Of a DNA stretch of 23,809 nt, positions 1 to 23,809 are shown piece after piece (positions within the stretch are counted from its first letter, which is position 1; every line of letters starts with the position of its first letter). Origin of the DNA: a virus. The notes beneath the pieces were generated by a model. It did not search any database, was not told where the DNA came from, and saw nothing but the letters and a program-made list of their open reading frames with translations. A program made the translations under genes and the position numbers. Location of the stretch: the IMG/VR virus record IMGVR_UViG_3300013126_000247, positions 1-23,809 of that record; one strand, 5' to 3'.

Positions 1-3000
1 GTGGGGCAGTCGTACCGGCGGCGGTGTTGGTGGCCCAGTAGGTAATTTTGCCGTTGTTCTCGATTTTGTAAATATCGTCCGGTGTACTATTTTGAACCAA
101 AAATGCGCCCACGCCTGCGGTGGTGTTTTCGCCTCGAACGTGAAGACGGGCAGAGGAAGTAGTCGCTCCAATAAGAACATCCCCATTATATAATAATTTA
201 ATATTAGGAGACCATAATAAATAATTTAAACTACTGCCTGTTGTATTAATTGTCGGATTTAAATGCAATAATGTAAATGAACCTGTACTTATTTGGTTAA
301 TTGTTGGTGTTATGCTTAATGCTTTTGTATTTGCAGAATCAGCATTAAAATTAAAAGTATTTGATATTGTTACCGAACTCCCTGCTGCGTTTCCAGTGCT
401 GCCACCAGCAAAACCTTGCAAATCTAATGAACCATAACGCCCAACAAAGCTAGTTATTGTATTAAGTGACGTCACCTCAATATTATTACCAATCCTTCTA
501 AAGCCACCTGAATTACTTGTACCTTCAGCTTGTATTACCCAACTCCCTGATGTACCTGAAACCTTTAAGTGGCCTGTTGAACTTACCATCCCGTCGTCTC
601 TAACGTTTAACAAGTTAGCTGGAATAGTATCATTATTTTGTACTAATAATGCACTTGATGTAGATAAATTGTTTTCGCCTTGAACGTGAAGGCGAGCGGA
701 GGATGTATACGTCCCAAATGACGCGTTTCCGGCGTGCGTCATTCTCGCAAGTGCATCTGTTGATTGAATAGAATAGACATTCGTTTGTGTGCCTGCGGTG
801 GTTGGGGTTAAATCATCAATTAATAATCCTACCGTGTTCGTGATGGTAGAGCCGACCGCGTGTGTAGGAAGCTTAATCTTCAACCCTTGCGCATCTGTAA
901 TCGTTCCTCCGGTTGAATTGTTAAGCATTAATATCTCAACGCCACGCAAAGAAGAAGCGCGGGAAGTAGTTGTTTCATTTTGAGCCACAAAGTATGCACC
1001 CCAAACTTGATTACTTGTTGATGTATTCCTGTTATTCGCATTAAACGCCATAGCTCTAGCGCCAAAAAATGGCTCACTACCTGCGTAAGTCATACCCCCG
1101 ACAAAAAAACCAACATCCTGAGAGAGACCTCCAGAAACAGTGTTTGTAATTGTAGGGCCTCCCGAAAATACACGATATGTGGTGGGAGATGAAATAGTGA
1201 AGGATTTGCCCAGTGCAATAGTACCATCATCGGCAGCCGATAGATACTCACTATAGCCTGAATCCCTGATTGATAGAGATGTAGTTGACGATGTCGCTCC
1301 GTCGCCTTTAATGTTTAATTTAGCGGTAACGGCAGGGTTTCCGATTGAAGTGGTCCCGTTATCCAATACGGAAAACAGTTCTACGTTAGACGAATTAGTA
1401 AGCCTTGTATTAACAGTCGTTAGCGTACCGCCCCCCTTCACGTTAAAGCGGCCCGTTGGCGAACTCGGATCGCCGATGTTAACTTGACCTGTATTTGTAA
1501 GCGCTGTTTTGTCGTATGTGAATCCATTACTACCTGCAAACGAACCGTCATCATTAAACTGTATTTGCGTAGTAGAACCACCAGGAGTACCACCTCCACT
1601 ACCTAACGCTCCCCATACACCATTAGCTCTACCTTTAAATGACATAGTAGTACTATCATATACCATCATACCGTCAGTAGCAGATCCTAAACTAGAATTA
1701 ATTTGAGTAGTAGTAAGTCGAGGTAATAGCAATCCTTTAGAGTTACTGTCTAATGTAAGAATAGCATTAGAATCTACAGAAGGAGTTGCAGAATCTCCAA
1801 TATAAGTATTAGGAGCAACAGTTAAACTTTGAGAATTATTTAAGTAAATATAATTAGCTCCTGAAGGACTTCCTATAAATACATCTTGAGTAATATCACT
1901 AACAGCAAATGCTGGGTTAGCATTTTGATGACGTATATTAAATAAACTTGATGTATTTATTTGAATATCAGTTAATGTTTGATTAACCCAGTTAGTCCCA
2001 TTATACCTAAGAAATTGGTTTGTAGTTGGTGAAGGTGCGACTACATCAGTAAGATCATTTAAAGTTTTTATAACTCCAGATAACACACCAGCGTTACTTA
2101 GAGATAATGTAGATGCATCTAATGAAGTTTTAAATAATCCGTCACCAGTAGTTATACCTATTAATCCAGATGCTGTAGAAACTGATGTAGGAATATTAGT
2201 AATACTAACCGTTCCGTCTAAAAGAATTTCATTTCTTACAAAAGTATTTGAACCAGTGTTATAAACAGTATTAATAGCTAAAGGTGTAGAGCCATAACCA
2301 TTAACATTATTATAACTATTAAATATTAATGATGATCGATACTGACTAGGTGAATCATTGAAAGTAATATTATTTATTTTAACAGTAGTTTGATTAATTG
2401 TATTAGTTCCTTCTATAGAATTAAATGATATAGAAGGACTTGATTGAATTACATCTGATAACTTTAAATTAGTACCATCCCAAGTAAGTTTAGAAGATCC
2501 TCCAAACGCCCCACTATTATTAAATTGAACTTCAGTATTATTACCTCCAGGTGCAGTAGAGTAATTAGGTATATTTAAAACACCATCTCCAGCTAATGTA
2601 GCTGCTCCACTTGTACCAGTAGTAGTAAGTGTAAGTGGTACTTGGAAATTAAGAGTTTTATTTTCCCAAAGACTATTACTAGAATTATACCTTAACACTT
2701 GGTTATTAGTAAGAGGATCTATAATATTAACATTATGTAATTCTTCTATTTCATAACCATTTTGTATCTTATATACAATACTTCCATTAGTAGGAGATGT
2801 TCTTGCTACTACACCTATAAATACTACGTGATTAGGTGCAGATGGTTTTACATTAGTTACATATCCAGCAGTATTAGGGTCTAACCAAAGATTATCACCA
2901 TCTACTAAAGTAACTGAAGTAAATGGATTTGTAGCAGTTGTTCTAGTATCCAAATTATGTAAGCTACCCATAGCAGCAACTAAACCATCATTATTAGGAT

Positions 3001-20689: not shown

Positions 20690-20719
20690 ATTAAACTATA
20701 TTGTATTTTAGATATACCT

Positions 20720-20936
20720 CTCCCTATGCCCGTTAATTGTCTTAACCGGAGAATCAATATACGTTCTTCACGTAACTGACATCTTACTTAAAGTTTTCCT
20801 TGTAGCCAGTGCATTTACAAACCTCGATGAATTACCAGTCTTTATACCTTTTCGGTTATTGGTGATTCTGGAACCAAGCCTACTAACTTCGGCTCACCCT
20901 CTAATTCATCTCAACTACAAGCTTATATACTTTAAG
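20720..20936. ncRNA. Candidate structured RNA with three nested long-range helices
   Basis: Three perfect helices are nested: 20787-20794 with 20929-20936 (8 pairs), 20799-20805 with 20915-20921 (7), and 20826-20834 with 20902-20910 (9). Within the innermost lies an ACC/GGT stem closing a GAAAA loop when read on the minus strand. To the left, TACGT/ACGTA (20760-20774) and GTTAA/TTAAC (20732-20746) form local hairpins. No reading frame spans the region. The extent and nesting suggest a folded RNA such as an intron-domain remnant, a riboregulator or a large phage RNA; I match it to no known family. Pairing alone does not give the strand, though the minus strand would place it in the leader of the late operon. 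Confidence 0.5.
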
Positions 20937-21097
20937 CATTTTTGCAATTGGCGGGGACACCTCGGAATTATGTTGACTATTATTTCAAGTCTATCCCTAC
21001 TACCCACCGTCTGATCCAGGCCCTGTTCTCTCATGGTTATGAGTTGCAACCGGATGATTTGATTTATGAGATCAAATTGCGGTACAAAGATAAGTAA
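20936..21097 (+). pseudogene. Start-less C-terminal coding fragment
   Basis: A 53-codon plus-strand frame beginning right after an in-frame TAA at 20933-20935 and ending at TAA 21095-21097. It reads AFLQLAGTPRNYVDYYFKSI, then PTTHRLIQALFSHGYELQ, then PDDLIYEIKLRYKDK. Composition and GC-rich codons (CTG, CAG, GCC, ACC) look like a real protein end, unlike the AT-rich surroundings, but there is no ATG in frame. It is probably the 3' remnant of a gene disrupted at about 20936, or an exon after an intron-like element. Family not recognised. A TTG start at 20942 cannot be excluded. Confidence 0.45.
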
Positions 21098-21406
21098 AAA
21101 AAAATAACTTGAAGAACCGATAATAGTGGTTTTGAAAAAAAACCTTATTTTATAACGGATAACGCAAAAAGAAAATTTAAATATTTTTTTATAAATTTAG
21201 TTTTTGTATTTTATATAAAAAGATGCCCCCCGGAGTCTTTTTTTTAAGTTGACTCCCCCCCCTATTTTTTGTGAGGATTATAGGTGTTTGGGTATCCCAG
21301 ACCCCACCCCCCACTAAATTATAGCTGGGGAAGGTCCCCTGGCGTTATTTTTCATTCTCTTCTAACTTTTTTTAACCCACCGCTCTTGTCCATTAGCGGT
21401 ATATAA
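21098..21406. other. Divergent intergenic region with GC-rich hairpins and C-tracts
   Basis: No gene is seen. The left part (21098-21220) is very AT-rich with runs of A and T and a GGTTTT/AAAACC stem. It is followed by unusual GC islands: six C at 21226-21231, GGAGTC/GACTCC (21232-21237 with 21251-21256), eight C at 21255-21262, TGGG/CCCA (21289-21299) and GGGGA/TCCCC (21327-21339). A TATATAA box-like string lies directly before the ATG at 21407. The arrangement between divergent gene blocks suits promoters or a replication origin, but I see no clear Bacteroidota -33/-7 promoter or iterons. Confidence 0.4.
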
Positions 21407-21994
21407 ATGAAAGACTATTGGTTCATGGAAAACCATTTTGTTGTTGTTGCTCTGAGTGGTGAGCATATGCTCGTAACACCTCAGTCTGTCAACCATTCTA
21501 GGTTTGGCATGTACGCAGAAGTGTGTACGCAGGGGTTGGTTTGTCCATCCCTATTCTCAGTTGTCGACATGGGTTATCCCATGGACGATGCTGAGTGGCA
21601 GACTCAAGCAGAGATTGAGACAACATCTTGGGGCCAAACCCTCGAGACGTCTCAATCTTTTCTCTTTGAGAGTATGCCTTTTGGGCCTGTTTCAATTGGT
21701 ACATACCCCAATGGGGAAAAGTACCAGTACAGGATCACTGCGCCACTTACTCACGAACATGTGGGTATGTTGCTGGGCATTGACAGTTCTTCCCGAAGGG
21801 TTTGGGAGGGTCAATTGTCTATTGCCTTATCCGTTTTGGCTTCTCAGCGGGCGTTTCGGCATTGGAATCCGTATCTGAAAGATTTGCAACTTCCGTCTGT
21901 TGCGGAAGTTGCGGGTCATTGGCCCGATTGCTGGACTGATGAAGCTGCTAATACATTTGTAGCTAAAAAGCTACAGATTGTTATCAGAGATTGA
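21407..21994 (+). CDS. Hypothetical protein, 195 residues, first rightward gene
   Basis: A 195-residue soluble protein starting MKDYWFMENHFVVVALSGEH. It has no membrane segment or signal peptide. A strand-rich first half (FVVVALSGEHMLVTP; VGYPMDDAEW-like turn) is followed by YQYRITAPLTHEHVGMLLGI near 107-125 and a helical, Trp-rich end (WPDCWTDEAANTFVAKKL). I recognise no family. ATG at 21425 (Met7) is an alternative start. Codons are distinctly more GC-rich than in the late genes, suggesting a different origin or expression class. Its TGA stop is the first triplet of the 255-bp structured repeat. As the first gene of the rightward block it may be an early host-takeover protein, which is inference. 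Confidence 0.65.
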   Translation: MKDYWFMENHFVVVALSGEHMLVTPQSVNHSRFGMYAEVCTQGLVCPSLFSVVDMGYPMDDAEWQTQAEIETTSWGQTLETSQSFLFESMPFGPVSIGTYPNGEKYQYRITAPLTHEHVGMLLGIDSSSRRVWEGQLSIALSVLASQRAFRHWNPYLKDLQLPSVAEVAGHWPDCWTDEAANTFVAKKLQIVIRD

Positions 21995-22246
21995 AGGAAT
22001 ACCAGTTACACTTCTGGTTTATCAAAAAGTGTTATTAATTGTAATATAACTGTGTAAATATGCTGTTCCAGAAATACAGCTATTACAATTAACTTTAATT
22101 CCATTAGTTGTAATTACAACTACACTACTAGCTTCAGCCTATTGAAGAGTATTACATAACAACAGAGTTTATGTAATATAAGTGTAAACTATGTAGCAGT
22201 ACATAGAAATAGGACATTTATGAATATGACTACTCAATAGGGTCGA
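21992..22246 (+). repeat. Structured direct repeat, copy 1 (255 bp)
   Basis: This copy matches 23558-23809 except for one T/A change and one extra CTA triplet. It begins with the TGA stop of the preceding gene and is built from inverted repeats: ACCAG/CTGGT (22001-22018); a 12-pair stem 22035-22046 with 22081-22092 enclosing GCTGT/ACAGC; an 18-bp perfect palindrome TAGTTGTAATTACAACTA (22105-22122); a 10-pair stem 22150-22159 with 22169-22178; CTATGTA/TACATAG (22189-22206); and the 5' arm GACTACTC (22228-22235). There is no coding frame of note. It could be a transcribed RNA, a terminator-processor, or a recombination or replication site. Confidence 0.9.
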
Positions 22247-22294
22247 AATTCAACCTGCAGTAAAACCAGTTATGCTGGCAGGGCGAGAGTAGTC
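22228..22294 (+). ncRNA. Stem-closed RNA-like domain upstream of the 60-residue gene
   Basis: GACTACTC (22228-22235) pairs perfectly with GAGTAGTC (22287-22294). Inside, CCTG (22254-22257) pairs with CAGG (22279-22282) and directly stacks on CCAG/CTGG (22266-22278), leaving unpaired stretches of 18 and 8 bases. It starts inside repeat copy 1 and ends 31 bases before the ATG at 22326, a position that would suit a 5'-leader regulator. It matches no riboswitch or ribozyme consensus I know. Confidence 0.45.
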
Positions 22295-22325
22295 AATAAA
22301 AATTCACTTTCAAATTCTATTCAAC

Positions 22326-22508
22326 ATGAAAAACACAATACTCCAGCACTCAGGCTGGTATTCAAGCAGCTTCTCTTCAGACTCCGAAGGCGTCCAATAC
22401 GTAGTCATGCACTACATAAGACCAGCCGAAGAAGGTATAGACGCCCCAGAAGGGGCTTGGTTTCATAAAGCCGGCGAAGACGTCGGTGAAACCGTTGTAC
22501 ATTATTAA
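22326..22508 (+). CDS. Small acidic hypothetical protein, 60 residues
   Basis: A 60-residue acidic protein, MKNTILQHSGWYSSSFSSDS, then EGVQYVVMHYIRPAEEGIDA and PEGAWFHKAGEDVGETVVHY. It is a plausible compact beta protein rich in aromatic and acidic residues, of the kind seen among phage early and inhibitor-type proteins, but I recognise no family. It is flanked on both sides by structured elements: a stem-closed domain ends 31 bases before the start, and a three-way junction begins one base after the stop codon. It has no clear SD sequence. Coding is supported by codon use and isolation, not by homology. Confidence 0.55.
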   Translation: MKNTILQHSGWYSSSFSSDSEGVQYVVMHYIRPAEEGIDAPEGAWFHKAGEDVGETVVHY

Positions 22509-22509
22509 G

Positions 22510-22573
22510 ACAGTATTTGTTCCCTACACAGGGCGTAGGGCTAAGTAGGTGGGCTGCACTTAGCAAATACTGT
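22510..22573 (+). ncRNA. Perfect three-way-junction element
   Basis: ACAGTATTTG (22510-22519) pairs with CAAATACTGT (22564-22573), ten perfect pairs. Enclosed are CCCTAC/GTAGGG (22522-22527 with 22535-22540; 7-base loop) and CTAAGT/ACTTAG (22541-22546 with 22558-22563; 11-base loop). The only unpaired junction bases are TT at 22520-22521. All 22 pairs are Watson-Crick. It starts one base after the stop of the 60-residue gene. The compact junction resembles a ligand-binding or ribozyme-like RNA or a processing signal; no known class fits. Confidence 0.6.
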
Positions 22574-22577
22574 AAAT

Positions 22578-22604
22578 AGTAACCAGAGAAAACTGGTGGT
22601 TACT
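22578..22604 (+). other. Hairpin after the three-way junction
   Basis: AGTAACC (22578-22584) pairs with GGTTACT (22598-22604); an alternative inner pairing CCAG/CTGG (22583-22596) is possible. No T run follows on the plus strand, so it is not a standard terminator. Confidence 0.4.
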
Positions 22605-22833
22605 AAAATAAAACCGTGCTTGGCCATGATTTAATCTGCTCAAGTTCCCAGATAAGCGGTTCTAAATAAAAAATGTTTAGACAATTAAGGCGTGAAAATC
22701 GTGCGTTAATCAATTGATTAGGTTTGTCAAAACAAAGTTGCAGAATCTTTGATAAAATCTGCTGTTGTGTTATCGGATTACCGGATATCACAATGTATGA
22801 CACAGGTAAAATCCCGATTTCTTCGTCGGTCAT
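22603..22833 (-). CDS. Doubtful minus-strand frame in the spacer
   Basis: A 76-codon frame read from Met at 22833 (MTDEEIGILPVSYIVISGNP, then ITQQQILSKILQLCFDKPNQ) that occupies the otherwise empty spacer before the gene at 22874. The residue mix is protein-like, but it opposes all neighbouring genes, has no SD sequence, and its last codon overlaps a hairpin arm. A longer version starting at 22899 would overlap the plus-strand gene. It may be a remnant of a transferred gene or chance; no family is recognised. Confidence 0.2.
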   Translation of the reverse strand: MTDEEIGILPVSYIVISGNPITQQQILSKILQLCFDKPNQLINARFSRLNCLNIFYLEPLIWELEQIKSWPSTVLF

Positions 22834-22873
22834 ACGCAGTCTATCAAACTGCCTTGTAAAGAAGGTTAACAAA

Positions 22874-23560
22874 ATGAAAAATGCAGTAATAATCGACAAC
22901 CCAAGTTTGAAAATCGAAGTTGATTTTAACTACAACAAAGTAATCTACGATATCAAAGGCGGAGCTAAGGGCTACAACTTTGACGTAGCAAACCTACCTG
23001 CAGTAGTGCAGGAATTCCTAAAAAGCAAAAGAGGGGCTAATGCGTGCCACAGACACGCTTCGGCAAGGAAGCTGCGCAATTTTGTCGCTTCTCAATTTTC
23101 CCACATGATTGCGGTTCAGCAGCAGGAAGCAATTCACCAGCGGCAACTTGAAAAAGAGCTGGAAAAAGAAAGGGAACAAAACCAGATCAAGGAAAACGTG
23201 GAGAAATTCTTTCTTCGACCTACTCTTGAGCACTGGGACAATATGGTGCCTAGCGTACAGGCAGGTATTCTCCCCCTCGTTACTCCTACTGGTGGATGGT
23301 CAGCACCACTCTTTATGGGTGAGTGCAAAACAGCTTTAAACCGCCTTACAGCCTGTAAAAAGTCTTTGGACGAAAAAATAAAAGAGTACCAAAAATTCGC
23401 ACCGGTGAACCTTATCCAAGGTTACAATAACGTGGGCTACACGAAAGCGTGGCTGCACAACACCGAAATCCGGCTATTGATTCCCGAATGTTTGTTAGAC
23501 TTTGATCAAACAGTCGAGAGACTAGAAGCCAGAATCTCTTATCTTGAGAGCCTGGCCTGA
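22874..23560 (+). CDS. Hypothetical coiled-coil protein, 228 residues
   Basis: A 228-residue protein. I chose ATG at 22874 (MKNAVIIDNPSLKIEVDFNY) over the upstream in-frame ATG at 22724 because it follows an AAGAAGG SD-like string at good distance and the upstream 50 codons look non-coding (Cys/Ser/Ile-rich). Residues 1-40 are a beta-type domain (IEVDFNYNKVIYDIKGGAKG), 55-75 are basic (KSKRGANACHRHASARKL), and 85-120 form a strong Gln/Glu/Lys coiled coil (QRQLEKELEKEREQNQIKEN). The C-terminal half is helical, with a last coiled-coil-like stretch DQTVERLEARISYLESLA. No family is recognised. GC-rich codons match the other rightward genes. Its TGA stop is the first triplet of repeat copy 2. Confidence 0.65.
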   Translation: MKNAVIIDNPSLKIEVDFNYNKVIYDIKGGAKGYNFDVANLPAVVQEFLKSKRGANACHRHASARKLRNFVASQFSHMIAVQQQEAIHQRQLEKELEKEREQNQIKENVEKFFLRPTLEHWDNMVPSVQAGILPLVTPTGGWSAPLFMGECKTALNRLTACKKSLDEKIKEYQKFAPVNLIQGYNNVGYTKAWLHNTEIRLLIPECLLDFDQTVERLEARISYLESLA

Positions 23561-23809
23561 AGGAATACCAGTTACACTTCTGGTTTAACAAAAAGTGTTA
23601 TTAATTGTAATATAACTGTGTAAATATGCTGTTCCAGAAATACAGCTATTACAATTAACTTTAATTCCATTAGTTGTAATTACAACTACACTAGCTTCAG
23701 CCTATTGAAGAGTATTACATAACAACAGAGTTTATGTAATATAAGTGTAAACTATGTAGCAGTACATAGAAATAGGACATTTATGAATATGACTACTCAA
23801 TAGGGTCGA
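23558..23809 (+). repeat. Structured direct repeat, copy 2, running to the window end
   Basis: These 252 bases are the same as 21992-22246 apart from one base change (TTTAAC for TTTATC near its base 33) and loss of one CTA triplet. They carry the same set of hairpins and the 18-bp palindrome. It too begins at the TGA stop codon of the gene before it, although the bases upstream of that TGA are unrelated between copies. The window stops just after GGGTCGA, so the partner of the GACTACTC arm lies outside. Confidence 0.9.

Follow-up and report, generated by a model that had tools for sequence, protein, structure and literature searches.

A duplicated hairpin-rich element as a possible recombining boundary of a cargo-gene slot in a crAss-like phage

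The element and the genes at the locus

The window analyzed here is the whole of a 23,809-base viral contig (IMG/VR record IMGVR_UViG_3300013126_000247, positions 1 to 23,809) from a crAss-like phage. Its minus strand encodes a Crassvirus-type major capsid protein, a terminase, a portal and a GroEL-like protein. Near the right end, where an oppositely directed (+) gene arm starts, two unrelated genes are each followed by a copy of an AT-rich, hairpin-rich, non-coding element of 317 bp, which we consider a candidate boundary of a slot for cargo genes. Two further contigs were used for comparison. G001 (IMGVR_UViG_3300013132_000033), a linear IMG/VR phage contig of 99,040 bases with completeness not given, is 99.7% identical to positions 1–22308 of the window, and L018 (IMGVR_UViG_3300032296_001939) comes from a sister phage with 80.7% identity to the window across a 16.4-kb alignment.

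The leader, genes and element copies of the locus lie on the plus strand. A leader between the divergent gene arms (20690–21356) carries a stem-loop at 21324–21343. It is followed by gene 1 (21407–21994; 195 aa, 47% GC), the stop codon of which opens element copy 1 (21992–22308). Behind copy 1 lie an open reading frame (ORF) of 60 aa (22326–22508; 48% GC) and an ORF of 228 aa (22874–23560; 45% GC), and the stop codon of the latter opens copy 2 (23558–23809), which is cut by the contig end after 252 bp. The start of the 228-aa ORF is a chosen ATG; the longest frame begins at TTG 22724. The GC contents of these three genes (45–48%) compare with 30% for G001.

The element had been described in the initial annotation as a nearly identical duplicate with one base change and one triplet indel, and alignment of both copies confirmed this. 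Positions 21992–22127 match 23558–23693 (99%), and 22127–22246 match 23690–23809 (100%); the copies differ by T at 22022 versus A at 23588, and the triplet 22124–22126 is missing from copy 2. Likewise, each copy does supply the TGA stop of an unrelated gene: the TGA at its start is the in-frame stop of the upstream ORF, and the codons directly before it differ between the two ORFs (GAT and GCC). The placement at the stop codon is exact for both copies, based on two genes only. Programmed read-through of this TGA was considered, as a 20-residue extension stays open past it; nothing supported it, and the candidate was dropped.

The length first proposed, 255 bp, did not hold. The portion of copy 1 repeated in copy 2 is indeed 255 bp (21992–22246, against 252 bp in copy 2), but copy 2 is truncated where the window ends, so 255 bp is not a natural length. 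G001 and the window diverge immediately past 22308, which sets the right boundary there and the common unit at 317 bp. Between their last difference and the contig end the copies share 120 identical bases, a pattern that looks like the end of an assembly graph. An assembly artefact, in which copies from different strains were joined at the repeat, would account for the end of copy 2 coinciding with that of the contig, 120 nt past the last difference, as at a short-read graph merge; in line with it, G001 also has the 182 nt that lead up to the junction at 22308. Against such a chimera, the two copies bear different markers, and even a chimera would require the element to adjoin several different genes. 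We therefore consider an artefact unlikely.

None of the genes beside the element could be assigned a function. Pfam, PHROGs and NCBIfam returned no convincing family for gene 1, the 60-aa ORF or the 228-aa ORF, and a hit of the 228-aa ORF to a transposase PHROG (E 0.0088, over its charged helical part) was not believed. Searches of phage and solved-structure collections gave no useful match for gene 1 or the 228-aa ORF. Among viral contigs a relative of gene 1 was found only in G001 and the 228-aa ORF had no useful match; gene 1 was not found in genome contigs. The structure models were not good enough for a structural search, with mean pLDDT (predicted local distance difference test) values of 52 for the 228-aa ORF, which appears helical in this low-confidence model, and 30 for gene 1.

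Stems and folding of the element

An inverted-repeat search recovered all of the stems named in the initial annotation: a 12-pair stem (22035–22046/22081–22092), an 18-bp perfect palindrome (22105–22122), a 10-pair stem (22150–22159/22169–22178) and a 7-pair stem (22189–22195/22200–22206). A fifth stem of nine pairs (22227–22235/22287–22295), which had not been named, lies partly outside the 255 bases. Non-overlapping perfect stems of at least seven pairs total 47 bp, versus 13.8 ± 8.6 bp in shuffled sequences, and 0 of 1000 shuffles reached 47; a stem of at least 12 pairs occurred in 6 of 1000 shuffles. RNA folding gave z scores of −3.55 for the plus strand (0/100 shuffles as good) and −2.95 for the minus strand (1/100). 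Both variable sites of the element are unpaired in the predicted fold, and no stem carries any change among the three nearly identical copies known, two in the window and one in G001.

Such a chain of hairpins would be expected of a functional 3′ untranslated region or non-coding RNA that terminates, processes or protects the upstream mRNA at its 3′ end, its duplication being incidental. Stem content far above that of all 1000 shuffles, location at two stop codons and the absence of substitutions from the element despite those in gene 1 (see below) are consistent with this explanation, as is the surrounding arm of G001, which is rich in structure on its sense strand. However, Rfam 15, searched at E values up to 5 over 20690–23809, gave no match within 21992–22289 or in copy 2, and thus none over the stems; a SNORD102 match starting at 22290 scored 23.7 bits, below the gathering score of 47. 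At gathering threshold on G001, Rfam returned three tRNA matches only. A sequence scan over the same stretch of the window found six terminator-like sites versus 2.3 expected, none of them in either copy. Three near-identical copies yield no covariation, and the two strands fold similarly. We hold an RNA of this kind to be possible as the whole explanation. Promoter-like sites in 20690–23809, in a scan covering the sigma70-like type, numbered three versus 7.2 expected by chance, with none in copy 1 and one weak site (9/12) in copy 2.

The arm of G001 near the slot had a mean folding z of −2.53 (70–75 kb, sense strand), whereas the late arms gave −0.2 to −0.9, and perfect hairpins numbered 25 per 13.5 kb in this arm versus 4–9 in six other stretches of 13.5–14 kb. 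The arm is thus structure-rich near the slot, and the element is therefore a pronounced example of a local tendency. Relative to the late arms, the G001 region at 70–78 kb is enriched in hairpins inside ORFs as well.

Comparison with related phages

G001 carries a single element, located behind its own gene 1, and has no match to the 60-aa or the 228-aa ORF (best match of the latter, E 0.93). Its element has T at the position of 22022, as in copy 1, and lacks the triplet, as in copy 2. This mosaic is what a crossover between copy 1 and copy 2 that removed about 1.57 kb would leave, and the reverse insertion fits too; the presence or absence of the segment is accompanied by a mosaic copy, defined by two markers only. 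The flanks of the element vary: on the left it follows gene 1 or the 228-aa ORF, and on the right it precedes the 60-aa ORF or, in G001, an unrelated stretch. This stretch (76.4–76.7 kb) contains an open frame on the antisense strand; a tRNA-like 3′ half can also be seen by eye, although ARAGORN and Rfam call none.

L018 aligns with the leader, with gaps, to about 21356, past the stem-loop at 21324–21343, and homology then stops. Behind the leader L018 has a different open frame, with 55% GC in the visible 190 bp, and the contig ends within that frame. We interpret the locus as a slot for cargo that follows a conserved leader.

The duplication could also reflect a non-autonomous mobile element, an IS200/IS605-like or other miniature inverted-repeat transposable element (MITE), inserted twice. 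The existence of two copies, the hairpins near both ends and the differing flanks would agree with such insertions. By eye, however, neither clear terminal inverted repeats nor a target duplication can be made out. G001 has one copy, and neither it nor the window contains a convincing diverged one: the best nhmmer match had E 1, and the best permissive blastn match had E 0.015 (66.7% over 84 bases). Moreover, G001 lacks the whole segment, not merely the element. G001 has 108 called ORFs, and 46 from the element-bearing arm were scanned against Pfam and PHROGs (25 of 42 PHROGs listed); the 21 Pfam families that they matched included no transposase, integrase or reverse transcriptase. Searches extended to the records, mostly short, of 26 relatives, that is, the 27 loci found by terminase less G001. 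Here the element gave just three chance-like matches of 17–25 nt, in 2 of the 26 records, and hence no further copy. Neither gene 1 nor the 228-aa ORF was found in these records at E values up to 0.1, the empty protein answer being without a positive control. Taken together, a mobile element of this type appears improbable.

Beyond these records, a search of phage DNA returned a 34-nt AT-rich match to the element (88% identity) in seven Flavobacterium phage records, with E 0.03, or E 4e-6 when a small sequence set was searched. We take it as chance. In Flavobacterium phage FPSV-S1 the match is intergenic, beside VirE-like and VRR-NUC-like genes, and the surrounding stretch (440–710 of the piece examined) is rich in GTTACAC/GTGTAAC repeats; by eye, similar short words occur in the element. 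A link to a replication site is conceivable. Similarity to plasmids (six records, best E 0.3) was dismissed as chance.

Variability of gene 1

Over 22.3 kb the window and G001 differ by 47 substitutions: gene 1, 588 bp long, accounts for 30 and the other 21.7 kb for 17 (Fisher p 4e-36 for the excess in gene 1 over the rest of the alignment). The element has none in 314 bp (Fisher p 4e-6, gene 1 versus element). Gene 1 also carries a 6-bp indel, and 23 of its codons are changed, six of them silently. Variation covers the entire gene, reaching to 5 nt before the TGA.

In diversity-generating retroelements (DGRs), a hairpin and the initiation of mutagenic homing (IMH) region directly follow the variable region, and the element could by the same token direct mutation of the preceding gene. 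A gene 1 that is hypervariable right up to an invariant element would fit, as would the bias of its substitutions, 24 of 30 of which involve A on the coding strand, with 6 of the 23 changed codons silent. Several observations argue against it. The variation spans the whole of gene 1, and the strands differ only slightly in their changes (A/G plus A/C 13 versus T/C plus T/G 5). RVT_1 (PF00078) was found in 0 of 1 record, the linear G001 of completeness not given, versus 3 of 14 control rings. Nor does G001 contain a template repeat: beyond gene 1 itself the best match was 24 bp (E 2e-4), which scored 21 in a second scan, and a reversed-sequence control gave nothing at threshold. A diversity-generating site thus seems very unlikely. 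Import of a diverged allele is a simpler reading of the variability than DGR mutagenesis; if an allele was imported, the element would have come along with it, and its conservation would then reflect constraint or exchange between copies.

A candidate boundary of a cargo-gene slot

Collectively, we put at about even the chance that the element marks the 3′ limit of a slot for cargo genes, located where one gene arm of the crAss-like phage starts, and that its copies recombine to gain or lose cargo. The element probably delimits a slot that takes up GC-rich ORFans, with copies that probably recombine with each other. In the mechanism we propose, GC-rich ORFans would occupy the slot between the conserved leader and the element. 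Because the boundary copies are nearly identical, they would allow homologous recombination, within a genome or between co-infecting phages, which would add or remove the intervening segment. The duplication, the presence or absence of the segment in two near-identical phages, the mosaic copy and the different cargo of the sister phage are direct observations; we infer recombination as their cause, and likewise its direction and its agent. A Sak4-like annealing protein encoded by the phage itself would be a plausible agent; it was matched by 1 of the 46 scanned ORFs of the G001 arm (phrog_124, E 2e-21, among the matches listed). Annealing proteins of the Sak type reportedly promote phage mosaicism as well as recombination between diverged DNA sequences (PMC5499656). 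Judging from position and structure alone, the hairpins would most likely act on the cargo transcript, to insulate, end or protect its 3′ end.

The initial annotation had suggested gene-plus-element cassettes or a recombination module. This suggestion gains support from the absence of the segment in G001, from the mosaic copy and from the different gene of the sister phage, within the limit that two markers define the mosaic. A conserved 3′-end RNA, its other suggestion, is a possible reading.

Several points weigh against a recombining boundary. Chance mutation could give the same two-marker mosaic. The right flank of copy 2 lies beyond the contig, so that the right flank of G001 follows copy 2 is a prediction, and the window contig could itself be a chimera of strains. 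The element holds no terminator-like site and its sole promoter-like match, in copy 2, is weak; folding of its stems is about as strong on one strand as on the other, and the RNA role is putative. Finally, exact patterns of 37, 23 and 22 bases matched only G001 among viral contigs, and an exact 23-base pattern had no match in genome contigs, searches that diverged copies would escape.

A broader reading, which we consider doubtful, is an integrase-free cassette system of crAss-like phages. In such a system, accessory genes would move as gene-plus-element units. Each unit would combine a long, invariant hairpin element, opening at the stop codon of its gene and serving as both mRNA 3′ end and annealing site for the swapping of units, with fast-diversifying genes inside.

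If the boundary reading is correct, a repeated boundary marks the start and end of accessory cargo in a crAss-like phage and could be used to locate such cargo. In other phages, cargo of this kind often consists of counter-defence genes. The reading would also extend the idea of boundary shuffling from T4-like phages to another order.

Relation to known systems

The promoter-early stem-loops (PeSLs) of T4-like phages were reportedly described by Arbiol et al. in 2010 and Comeau et al. in 2014. As presented in one report, PeSLs lie between the genes of a variable region as repeated stem-loop units, and recombination between units shuffles genes among related phages (PMC4503421). The element resembles them as a repeated stem-loop unit beside variable ORFans. 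It differs in having no strong sigma70-like early promoter (none in copy 1, a weak 9/12 match in copy 2) and no terminator-like stem-loop in either copy by sequence scan. It is also long (317 bp, with five perfect stems), and it is a single duplicated element in a crAss-like phage. By analogy the element may work like a PeSL boundary, but we do not class it as a PeSL because it lacks a terminator-like site and its sole promoter-like match is weak and confined to copy 2.

A structured element directly behind each cassette gene also recalls the attC sites of integrons, although the element is longer than attC sites. Tyrosine integrase (Phage_integrase, PF00589) was found in 0 of 2 records (G001 and L018), with the control at 14/14, and the attC core pair GTTRRRY/RYYYAAC gave one site, at 22248–22254, with no partner. 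The integron reading was rejected, since G001 and L018 gave no integrase match and the core sites are not paired.

Phage morons are similarly extra genes of differing base composition between regulatory stretches; here, however, the boundary is a long repeat common to unrelated cargo. DGRs likewise pair a gene end that is hypervariable with structured, invariant sequence behind it, and the difference is the lack of a reverse transcriptase match and of a template repeat in G001. The DGR, MITE and Rfam-family readings each failed their defining tests, namely reverse transcriptase and template, transposase and dispersed copies, and family match, respectively.

Other features of the phages

A second structured stretch, on the plus strand at 22510–22605, was found by the inverted-repeat search; it comprises a 10-pair stem (22510–22519/22564–22573) and a 9-pair stem (22577–22585/22597–22605). 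The GroEL-like chaperonin encoded by the phage (13444–14895) lies within the structural gene block, and a GIY-YIG homing-endonuclease-like protein is also among the 46 scanned ORFs of the G001 arm.

At window 598–2904, a 1,548-aa ORF, tail-fibre-like by eye, holds 13 of the 17 substitutions versus G001 outside gene 1, and these are clustered; the ends of the window and G001 contigs fall at most 24 bases apart inside this ORF.

On the minus strand of G001, at 58.46–60.07 kb, 12 mini-gene units form a tandem array that resembles a variable-region array, yet G001 has no reverse transcriptase match. A readable ATG is present in 11 of the 12 units, which encode 43–47 aa (79 aa in one) and mostly follow the pattern M...GGSW...C...R...GFRLIKxLK, with conserved ends, a hypervariable middle and unit GC contents from 23% to 55%. 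FGE-sulfatase was matched by 2 of the 46 scanned G001 ORFs, and the 202-aa ORF at 60130–60738 was taken as one by eye.

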